In this document: positions 40,491 to 44,977 of the stretch, piece by piece
How positions within the stretch are numbered: position 1 is the stretch's first letter
How the letters are laid out: each line of letters begins with the position of its first letter
NCBI GenBank assembly: GCA_021604005.1
Contig: BQIV01000022.1
Location: 1-64,000, forward strand
Reading direction: 5' to 3'
Length of the DNA: 64,000 bases
Origin: Nitrospirales bacterium
GTDB lineage: Bacteria; Nitrospirota; Nitrospiria; Nitrospirales; UBA8639
Notes under the pieces: model-generated
What the model saw: the letters and a program-made list of their open reading frames with translations, nothing else
Databases searched by the model: none
What the model was told of the DNA's origin: nothing
Translations under genes and position numbers: made by a program

Positions 40491-41417
40491 CTAGGTCCTC
40501 CGTGGCCGTATGACCAAGGTTGAGCAAGACGTATACCCGGCCACCCATTCGGAGACACTGCCCATGTGAAACCGTTCGGGACCCGTCAACCCCTTTGAAC
40601 CGAGAACGGCAAGATCAGCTTTTGCGCTTTCGAGCTGATCGAGAATCACTTTTCTCGGCTCACCCTCTTTGACATCTGCGGTCACACGATAGCCTTCTTT
40701 AAGAAAGAACTCTCGATATTGTGCTGTAACTTCCTTTGCTCGCATTTGAAAAGGCTTCATCAGACTTTTTGCGTGCGATTTAGAAAGAAGCTTCGGACCA
40801 ATATCCGTCAAGAACTGTGGCACGACCGAGAGGACATTGAGCGAGATGGCCTCGTCCGACAGGATCGGCGCGAGCCATGAATGAAATGCGCTGACCGCAC
40901 GCTTCGAGGCATTGGAGCCATCCACAGCTAGTACGACTTTCGGTTTTTCTGAGATTGGCTCTTTCACTGTTAAGACTGCACAGGGCGCGTGAGTCAAGAC
41001 TTTCCGTGAGACGCTCCCCATGAGATAGCCAGTGATGTTACTCAGTCCTCGTGACCCCATGACAATCAGATCGGCCTTTCGTTTTTCAGCCTGCTTCGTC
41101 ACCACATTAGTAACATGTCCATGCGTCAACACCGTCCGAATCGCAACAAAAGGTTTCGTATGTGCCTGATTAATCGCGATGGCCGCATGGTTTTCAGCTT
41201 GTTTCAAAAGTTGTTTGCCATCTTGATTCATCGCGGTGATCACTTTCTTGACCTTAGCAGCACTCGCTCCTTCTTTCTTCATCCCCTGCCGCAATTGCAC
41301 ATCATCTACCACATGGAGGAGCACGACCTCTCTTAGGGATTGATGAAACAATGTCCCCAAAGCCTCAACGGCCCAATTTGAAAATTCAGAACCGTCGACC
41401 GCACATAACACTTTCAT
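40491..41417 (-). CDS. Universal stress protein, two Usp domains
   Basis: 308 residues, MKVLCAVDGSEFSNWAVEAL at the start and a second Usp domain from about residue 160 (KVVLAVDGSNASKRAVSAF). Nucleotide loops: GSRGLSNITGYLMGSVSRKV and GSKGLTGPERFHMGSVSEWV. The gene overlaps the upstream macro-domain gene by 4 bp (ATGA type), so the two are translated together under the sigma-54 site at 42051. Confidence 0.92.
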   Translation of the reverse strand: MKVLCAVDGSEFSNWAVEALGTLFHQSLREVVLLHVVDDVQLRQGMKKEGASAAKVKKVITAMNQDGKQLLKQAENHAAIAINQAHTKPFVAIRTVLTHGHVTNVVTKQAEKRKADLIVMGSRGLSNITGYLMGSVSRKVLTHAPCAVLTVKEPISEKPKVVLAVDGSNASKRAVSAFHSWLAPILSDEAISLNVLSVVPQFLTDIGPKLLSKSHAKSLMKPFQMRAKEVTAQYREFFLKEGYRVTADVKEGEPRKVILDQLESAKADLAVLGSKGLTGPERFHMGSVSEWVAGYTSCSTLVIRPRRT

Positions 41418-41902
41418 AACTTCTCCTTGGCTTTCACACCCTTATGAAATACCGTATAGACATAAATAGGGATGGCCAGCTCACCAAGATGTTGAGTAAT
41501 GAGTAGTCGAACCTCTTCCCACTTTAATGCCCCAACACCGGTCGCCAATCTGGGCAATGCAAGACTCTTCACACCTTCTTTCTCGACTAGTAGTTTCAGT
41601 TCTCGCAATGCATGATTGACATACACTGTTGTCGCACGACCAGGTCGACCGCCTTGAACAGGGGATGCTTCTTGTGTCAGTAAATGGACAAGACGCTTGC
41701 CTTCAGCTCCTCCCCATATGACGATCTCCCCGGGCTTTGGATTATTCACTTGGCAATAATGGCGAAAATCCTTGACCATGGCTGGCCACTGCTCACGTAG
41801 ACTCAGAGCCAGTCCCTGCGAAAAATGGTCTCCTGGTGCCACGCCATGTGCAATGCACTCTGATTCTGTGCGTAAAATGTCTCCTTCGACTTCATGAATC
41901 AT
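41414..41902 (-). CDS. Macro-domain (ADP-ribose binding) protein
   Basis: About 162 residues from the ATG at 41902, preceded by GAGAGG; it gives the usual opening MIHEVEGDILRTES. A longer GTG start at 41950 is less likely. Macro-domain motifs are IAHGVAPGDHFSQGLALSL and ALPRLATGVGALKWEEV. Such proteins bind or hydrolyse ADP-ribose or its protein adducts. Coupling to a Usp gene by a 4-bp overlap suggests a shared nucleotide- or NAD-linked stress function. Confidence 0.87.
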   Translation of the reverse strand: MIHEVEGDILRTESECIAHGVAPGDHFSQGLALSLREQWPAMVKDFRHYCQVNNPKPGEIVIWGGAEGKRLVHLLTQEASPVQGGRPGRATTVYVNHALRELKLLVEKEGVKSLALPRLATGVGALKWEEVRLLITQHLGELAIPIYVYTVFHKGVKAKEKL

Positions 41903-42050
41903 CTCATTCGCCTCTCGGAGTATAGGTTCTACAAATTTCTCACTAAACACGCCTCATGAATCCACGATTACACGCACCAGAAATCATTCAATATGCACCT
42001 TATCTTTGAACAGTCCGATAACCACATCTTTAAGCTACAGGTGCTGAATA

Positions 42051-42066: not shown

Positions 42067-43337
42067 CTACCCTTGCATTTAAAACCTCCTTTTTTGTGTC
42101 CTTTTCTACATAACTCTGTGGTCATGTCCCAATTTGCGACGATACCCACTTCCTTTTGTGTAGATTTTCGCTACGCTCTGGTCTGTAATTACAGACCATT
42201 CATCACTAAAGGCACACATCCTTTGGCACTGTGCTTGCTGGATAATATGTAACGAAACGATAATTGAATGATAAAAACATTCTCTTTCTTCCTTGCGCCT
42301 TGTTCATTCCTTTCTTCTTGTAAGAGATAGTATTCATTTGAATGTCCTTCTCGAACTTCTCATCCTCATTGTACTTGCCAGGGTCTTCGGTGAGGCGGCT
42401 GAACACCTTGGACAGCCCTCTGCAGTCGGCGAACTCAGCGCCGGCGTCATGCTGACAGCAGCCGCTTCCCTGTAGGGACCGTCTATTCCTATTTTCACTC
42501 ATTTGCTCACAAGTCAGACTCTAGAAGAGATTGCCCAAGTTGGAATTTTTTCTCTAGTCCTGTTAGCGGGGATTGAATCGAAACTCGACGAACTTCGCCA
42601 AAATTCTGGCAGCGCCATTTTTGTCGCCCTTGGGGGTGCCCTTGTTCCGCTGATAGCAGGATTCATCTTGGGATGGCTGTTTCTTCCCGAATCAGACGTG
42701 AAATCCGTACAGGCACTTCTGATAGGTATCACCATGTCAATCACCTCGATGCCAGCCACCATCAAGGTCCTGACAGATTTGGGTTACTGCATTCAAGAAT
42801 CGGACAGACCATTGTTGGTGCAGCCATTGTTGACGATATTCTAGGGTTATTCTTACTCGCTCTTGTAACGATGATGATTCAAACCGGGCATATCCCGGCC
42901 CCATTGGCTTTCGCGGTACTTCTAGGCAAGGTAATACTTTTCTTCGGCATCGCTATCAGCCTTGGTATACATGTCTACCCCAGAGTTAGTCAGAACCTTA
43001 AAGCGTTGCAACTCGCTACCGTGGAGTTCAGCGCTCTGATGGTAGTGGCACTTGCATACGGTCTCCTTGCTGAAGCTCTGGATCTGCATTGGATTTTGGG
43101 CGCTTTTATGGCAGGGCTCTATTTTGAACCGAGTCGGGTTGGTCAGGAAGCGTATCAAGAAATGGAGTTGATCGTGACAGGCATTACTCAAGGGGTTCTT
43201 GGACCACTATTTTTTATTTGGATAGGACTCAATGTGGCATTCGAAACTGTTCTGCAAATTCCAATGTTTATCCTCTTCCTCTTAATCATCGCCTTTTGCG
43301 GAAAACTCATTGGTTCCGGCCTGCCTGCTTACTGGCT

Positions 43338-43447
43338 AGGGTACAACCGTCAGGAGGCCTTGGCAGTCGGAGTCGGCATGAGTAGCCGCGGAAGGGTACA
43401 ACCGTCAGGAGGCCTTGGCAGTCGGAGTCGGCATGAGTAGCCGCGGA
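43338..43447. repeat. 55-bp perfect tandem duplication inside the antiporter pseudogene
   Basis: The 55-bp unit starting AGGGTACAACCGTCAGG at 43338 is repeated from 43393. It duplicates the segment encoding YNRQEALAVGVGMSSRG and changes the frame by one base. Confidence 0.95.
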
Positions 43448-43527
43448 GCGGTAGAGCTTATCGTGTTAAGCATTGTCTATGACGCAGGATTATTTTCTTC
43501 CATGGCACCTGAAAACCTTATAGTATA

Positions 43528-43962
43528 GTTTTTTAACTTTCTCTCAGTACCTATGACCTGACGCCTTCAGGCCAGTCCGTTGAGTGAACACCTCTCATAC
43601 TGGGCGGGCTTGTTTGAACGCAGCGAGTTAGCCCGCCCCACCAACCGGGATTCATCTCATCCGATGAACCTGGCCTGGGCGTTCATGGTTTTGGGTCCTT
43701 TTGCCGAAACAAAAGGGCCGCGGCCGCCGGGACGAACCCCGGCAGAGAACAAAGACCTAGGACGATACGCAGTGCAGGTGATGAATGAGGGAAGAAGCCA
43801 TATTCTTGAGCAAAAGGTCCTCTACCACTATAGCGAATCCATACGTTTCAAACAGGAAAATACAGCTAACCCAGCACGGTACAACGATTGGATCAGCGGA
43901 AGTTATTGGAAACGGCTATAGCATTTTCCAGACAAATAGGTCTTAATGAAAAGTTAAAAAAC
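43528..43962. mobile_element. 435-bp inverted-repeat (MITE-like) element in the antiporter gene
   Basis: The ends GTTTTTTAACTTT (43528-43540) and AAAGTTAAAAAAC (43950-43962) are perfect 13-bp inverted repeats. They are flanked by TATAGTATA (43519-43527) and TATAGTAAA (43963-43971), a 9-bp direct repeat with one mismatch. Removing 444 bp (element plus one flank) rejoins the antiporter reading frame exactly (APENLIV to NLFSALVL). Inside is a GC-rich hairpin (GGCGGGCTTGTTTGAACGC ... AGCCCGCC at about 43601-43637). A frame of 113 codons within reads like translated repeat (AGLFERSELARP) and not like a gene. Confidence 0.85.
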
Positions 43963-44092
43963 TATAGTAAACTTGTTTTCAGCATTAGTCCTCACAATCG
44001 TGCTCACAACCTTCCTGACACTTGTGACAATGCGAAAGGTTCTTTCAAAATCGCCCAGCTGAATAGGACGGATTCATCCGTAGTGAGAATCT

Positions 44093-44977
44093 ATGGCCAA
44101 CACACAGTCGACGGCTAGCAGGCTTCAAGAGATACAATATGTCCTGCGTTCAGTGCTCATTCTCAATCTCTTCGTCGCTCTCACCAAACTGAGCTATGGA
44201 GTGATCACAGCTTCCCTAGGGATGCAAGCCGATGGGTTTCATTCCTTGTTCGATGGGATATCCAATGTGATTGGACTGACTGGTTTGTGGCTAGCCTCTC
44301 AGCCTCCTGATGATAATCATCCCTATGGACACAAAAAATTTGAAGTCCTTGCCGCGGCTGGCATTGGCGGAATGCTGATTAGCACATGCATGTACTTGCT
44401 CTGGAAAAGCATTCATACCCTAGGGCAGGAACCATCCCCTCAAGTCACGGAATTGAGCTTTGGGGTCATGATCATAACAATAGTCGTCAATCTGGGAGTC
44501 ACAAGGTGGGAACAAAAGAAGGGGAATGAATTACAGAGTGAAATTTTGCTCGCAGATTCCTACCATACGGCCAGTGATATGCTCACGTCCGTATCTGTGC
44601 TCATTGGCTTAGTGGCCATCAAACTCGGCTATCCCATGTTTGATCCACTTGTCGCCCTGTTTGTGGCAATCGTCATCGCATGGACTGCTAGCAAGATTTT
44701 CAAAGAAGTCATCCGTTCCCTCACCGATGAAGTCCGATTAGACATCGAGTCTGTACGTGCGGCGGTGCTCGCCATACCCGGCATTCTCGGTTGTCATGAC
44801 ATCCGCACTCGTGGATTAGCCAGTCATGTTTTCGTTGATCTTTCGATTCACGTACAACCACGCATGTCAGTTGAGGAGGGACACGTCATGGCTCATCAGG
44901 TGGAAGAGACGATCAAAAAACGGTTTAACGGGGTTGAAGACATCATCGTTCATGTAGAACCAGAAGGCCACACATGA
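44093..44977 (+). CDS. Cation diffusion facilitator (CDF) metal exporter
   Basis: 294 residues with six membrane helices and a C-terminal cytoplasmic metal-sensing domain. The two metal-site helices are DGFHSLFDGISN (HxxxD in helix II) and DSYHTASDML (HxxxD in helix V), so the H-D/H-D pattern predicts Zn2+/Co2+/Cd2+ or Fe2+/Mn2+ transport by proton exchange. The C-terminal domain has RGLASHVFVDLSIHVQPRMS and ends in HVEPEGHT. It lies 30 bp after the broken antiporter gene and may have shared its promoter. No strong ribosome site is visible. Confidence 0.9.
   Translation: MANTQSTASRLQEIQYVLRSVLILNLFVALTKLSYGVITASLGMQADGFHSLFDGISNVIGLTGLWLASQPPDDNHPYGHKKFEVLAAAGIGGMLISTCMYLLWKSIHTLGQEPSPQVTELSFGVMIITIVVNLGVTRWEQKKGNELQSEILLADSYHTASDMLTSVSVLIGLVAIKLGYPMFDPLVALFVAIVIAWTASKIFKEVIRSLTDEVRLDIESVRAAVLAIPGILGCHDIRTRGLASHVFVDLSIHVQPRMSVEEGHVMAHQVEETIKKRFNGVEDIIVHVEPEGHT

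Follow-up and report, generated by a model that had tools for sequence, protein, structure and literature searches.

A CPA2 antiporter gene of a Nitrospirales bacterium, probably lost recently, and the high-copy MITE family and structured core found in it

Introduction

Four lesions interrupt an antiporter gene of a Nitrospirales bacterium just upstream of an open cation exporter gene, which raises the question of whether the antiporter was lost recently and by what events. The locus lies in positions 1 to 64,000 of contig BQIV01000022.1 (GenBank assembly GCA_021604005.1), the whole 64,000-nucleotide stretch that was analysed and that is called the window here. An earlier note, made from the sequence alone, had described a stop codon, a one-base deletion, a 55-bp tandem duplication and an inverted-repeat insertion in one Kef/CPA2-like gene, and had read them as recent, stepwise loss. 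Our analysis indicates that the locus is very probably a recently dead CPA2, NapA-like antiporter gene in which lesions accumulated after selection was relaxed.

Results

The remains of the antiporter gene are bounded by a TTG codon at 42338 and a TGA codon ending at 44062 on the forward strand (Table 1). The earlier note had the same end; its start, 42323, gives way to the TTG, which is conserved in relatives. Both main pieces of the gene matched PF00999 (61.8 and 95.2 bits, against a cut-off of 26.2). Intact orthologues scored 135.9 and 134.8 bits (E = 1.8e-39 and 3.9e-39) with the NCBIfam CPA2 subfamily model TIGR00932, below its cut-off of 238.3. Among solved relatives, residues 4-392 of an intact orthologue aligned with PDB 5bz2, a Na(+)/H(+) antiporter, at E = 1.1e-28, ahead of KefC at E = 9.4e-9. 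The name Kef is thus too narrow. We take 5bz2 and 4bwz to be NapA-type CPA2 Na+/H+ antiporters, although their listing says only Na(+)/H(+) antiporter. Unlike these proteins, the window copy is broken, and its likeness to them comes from the sequence comparison of its intact orthologue. The original product was probably an antiporter about 409 residues long that lacked an RCK domain, with Na+/H+ (or K+/H+) as its inferred substrates.

Table 1. Features of the antiporter locus, in window positions.
Feature	Position	Strand	Basis
Macro-domain gene (PF01661), upstream of antiporter	41414-41950	-	Pfam; also beside antiporter in L013
CPA2/NapA-like antiporter pseudogene (PF00999), remains of about 409 codons	42338-44062	+	Pfam matches; intact orthologues L012, L013, L014
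In-frame TAG stop	42473-42475	+	Relatives (n = 3) have TGG/TGG/TGT
One-base deletion; codon cut to two bases	42776-42777	+	Comparison with relatives
Exact 55-bp tandem duplication; edges without microhomology	43338-43447	+	Self-comparison; relatives
MITE copy, including both flanking TA	43524-43966	+	Copies in own genome; letters of the window
185-nt structured MITE core	43560-43744	+	Alignment; fold; free-standing copies in sister genera
Open CDF family cation exporter gene	44093-44977	+	PF01545, PF16916; TIGR01297 above cut-off

When 40 genomes, including the organism's own, were searched at the DNA level, the antiporter gene was matched in five: its own, G004, G002, G005 and, weakly, G015. 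Intact orthologues were found at L012 (G004, 406 aa), L013 (G002, 410 aa) and L014 (G005). The TTG start codon is kept in all three genomes, with the listed frame of G005 starting further upstream. In two of the four same-genus genomes (G001 and G003), the DNA search detected no match to the antiporter gene or to the CDF gene. The CDF gene, which had been described as intact and indeed forms an open frame, begins 30 bp beyond the antiporter's old stop and also directly follows the antiporter at L012 and L013; at L014 the antiporter is followed only by a short frame with CDF-like sequence. The antiporter gene was probably the first of a two-gene unit with the exporter. The histidine-kinase gene end of the window's neighbourhood is also present at L012, and a search of a plasmid collection returned nothing similar. 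The genome holds three further PF00999 genes, all open, and therefore loss of this antiporter may be tolerable.

All four lesions are present in the window and absent from the three intact relatives, and with them the gene lacks an open reading frame and was filed as a pseudogene. The two copies of the duplication (43338-43392 and 43393-43447) are direct and 100% identical, and each relative has a single copy. The insert measures 439 bp without the TA dinucleotide on either side, 441 bp net and 443 bp with both counted, rather than the 435 bp first reported, and its first bases create a further TAG stop at 43526-43528. These events account for the length of the locus: an open gene of 1230 bases that loses 1 and gains 55 and then 441 comes to 1725. 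The frame is left unshifted by the insert.

The duplication had been said to restore the frame lost by the deletion. As arithmetic this is right (-1 + 55 = +54), and the old frame is regained. However, past the first TAG the original frame stops again at 42842-42844, and translation is not rescued because both stops come ahead of the duplication. Functional compensation of the one-base loss was accordingly ruled out; the frame return is arithmetic only, with a 1-in-3 chance of arising and no functional meaning.

Little credence can be given to continued production of a truncated antiporter, be it from a frame such as the open 255-codon one at 42673-43440, which includes the region with two neighbouring aspartates but not the first part of the fold, takes its start codon from within a formerly different reading frame and runs at its end into the duplication, or by recoding, to which no result points.

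The insert had been described as an inverted-repeat insertion. Inverted repeats are present (34-nt arms, 79% complementary), and the insert is more than that: it belongs to a high-copy MITE family of the IS630/Correia-like kind, which targets TA, contains a structured core and has dozens of copies in the genome. A TATAGTTTTTTAACTTT-like sequence forms the terminal inverted repeats at both ends, and the ends of the family resemble those of Correia elements. At least 66 matches to the insert were found in the organism's own genome (40 of 165 candidates were scored), and the end pattern, with up to three mismatches, occurs at 117 places in this genome, against 35 for a reversed control pattern. 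Both ends were present in 23 of the 41 stretches inspected (the window's and 40 others). These 23 copies measure 323-714 bp, and 21 of them have TA at both termini, the flanks being otherwise unrelated. With a single TA kept, the empty site has the length of the orthologues. A 5-bp target duplication, TAGTA, was considered for the insert and dropped in favour of TA, as the TA ends of other copies and the orthologue length decide. Pfam gave no match to the two frames that overlap the window's insert, and no transposase gene lies inside it. No intrinsic terminator was found at the insert; promoter-like matches there numbered two, against 0.6 expected.

Two further observations concern other copies. 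Elements of about 104 bp in the same genome (L055:318-421 and L063:463-566) have similar ends (TATAGT... / ...ACTATA) and are perhaps a second MITE group. Additional insert-end matches beside other copies, at L031 and L045, suggest nested or adjacent insertions.

When the flanks of 22 copies were joined, copies cut by a contig end being left out, a stop-free stretch of 300 bp crossed the insertion point in 4, compared with 212 of 300 random window points. The family thus lies mostly between genes, and a copy inside the antiporter gene is unusual. Such a position fits a gene on which selection had already ceased, without proving that order.

It is very unlikely that the lesions are assembly errors or reflect a strain mixture in the metagenome bin. 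The assembly consists of 92 contigs, its contamination is 1.66%, and among the 66 listed insert matches 9 begin at the first base of a contig, so that these repeats were frequent break points for the assembler; at this locus, however, the insert has half of a single gene on each side, the halves meeting at TA, and is therefore no false join, usual reads are longer than the 55-bp duplication, and four independent errors in one gene next to an open neighbour are improbable.

The age of the loss was estimated from branch dN/dS, with the in-frame pieces of the window copy compared with L012 and L013 over 402 codons. The window branch had a dN of 0.074 and a dS of 0.585, giving a ratio of 0.127 (bootstrap 0.077-0.207), compared with 0.141 (L012) and 0.047 for the two intact branches and 0.067 for these together. 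The share of the window branch passed without constraint was 0.065 (bootstrap 0.001-0.160), or about 6%, which argues for a recent loss. Of 288 residues invariant in the three relatives, 30 are altered in the window copy. The CDF gene had a dN/dS of 0.160 on the window branch, and by this measure constraint is therefore no weaker on the antiporter than on its open neighbour. Since the excess is small and the L012 branch is equally high, lost constraint would not be proved by the rate test on its own. The copies of the duplication show no differences, and the insert carries 10 private substitutions in 442 columns relative to four sister copies, which bounds its age at no more than about 4% of the branch's dS. 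Collectively, the rates, the unmutated duplication and the young MITE copy fit the recent loss claimed by the earlier note, without ordering the four events.

Whereas the broken gene is ordinary, the structured core of the insert is the more curious part and the one worth following. It recurs without MITE ends in four genomes of sister genera (G018, G020, G014 and G015). Around 20 free-standing copies, no convincing MITE ends were found within 300 bp, only weak five-mismatch matches at L093, L097 and L101. An alignment (A3) of the window copy with 15 of the 20 fetched free-standing copies, from which five more diverged ones (L107-L111) were excluded, yielded six helices, with both-side changes in 22 of 54 pairs. 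Shuffled controls gave a mean of 10.7 such pairs, and none of 500 shuffles reached 22; paired cells made up 95.7%, a share that fell to 34-50% once partners were slid. Because related sequences can beat shuffles without structure, most weight lies with the pair count and the control with slid partners. Both-side changes in so many pairs suggest that the fold may be kept, not the sequence alone. At all 12 core loci checked, a mechanical frame of at least 80 codons overlaps the core, on either strand.

A model of the core matched 4 of 118 genomes in a sample of the phylum, all of one family, with no match in G005 of that family. Among 4227 Rfam models, none matched at gathering score across the window and none at E <= 1 within 43500-43990; a literature search for the core's sequence found no paper. 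REP/RAYT repeats are likewise dispersed, folded and present in many copies. The core resembles them in these respects, but the presence of Y1_Tnp genes does not match that of the core: none were found in G007 and G014, which have the core, and some were found in G005, which does not. REP/RAYT mobilisation of the core is thus unsupported. It is possible, as a tentative reading, that the MITE carries an as yet undescribed structured RNA or DNA element, about 185-195 nt long, that occurs across the family, is free-standing in sister genera and, in this genus, was captured and spread by the MITE.

A partner transposase was sought in 24 genomes. The organism's own genome yielded no whole DDE_3 transposase; the single fragment found there spans 35 of 146 DDE_3 positions. 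At 14 loci of relatives there was no matching end pair, only weak five-mismatch matches.

Discussion

These findings are consistent with a history in which selection on the antiporter was relaxed, and a point mutation, the loss of one base, a local tandem duplication and a TA-target MITE insertion then accumulated. The TAG, the deletion or the duplication would each probably abolish function alone, whereas the MITE by itself would cost the protein no more than its final 31 or so residues. One lesion presumably came first, and the others would have been neutral afterwards. Stepwise accumulation, as the earlier note proposed, can reasonably be inferred. The MITE was most likely moved in trans by an IS630/Tc1-type transposase, of which no whole copy was found in the assembly.

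The MITE family resembles known repeat systems in part. Correia repeat enclosed elements of Neisseria, as described in the available portions of two reports (PMC5039591, PMC2229807), are short MITEs that number more than 100 per genome, with tatagtggattaa at the start of their ends and TA at the termini. The window MITE is likewise short and many-copy, with similar ends and TA termini; the Neisseria elements, however, measure 69-151 bp, well below the 23 copies measured here, and differ in their interior. The pneumococcal RUP, in the available part of one report (PMC2229807), also has a TA-containing target and the MITE format, and mobilisation by IS630-Spn1 has been proposed. On that description, RUP is 107 bp with a known partner IS, whereas none was found for the window MITE. 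Judged by titles and the opening lines of abstracts, the literature listed on miniature inverted repeats, transposable elements and interspersed repeats in Nitrospira offered nothing of apparent relevance.

The broken gene itself represents an ordinary recent gene loss with a clear lesion record. Its insert calls for caution, as assemblies of this Nitrospirales lineage break at these repeats, and it points to a high-copy MITE family in the lineage. The core, a conserved structured repeat without an Rfam match, is possibly a structured, mobile RNA or DNA.
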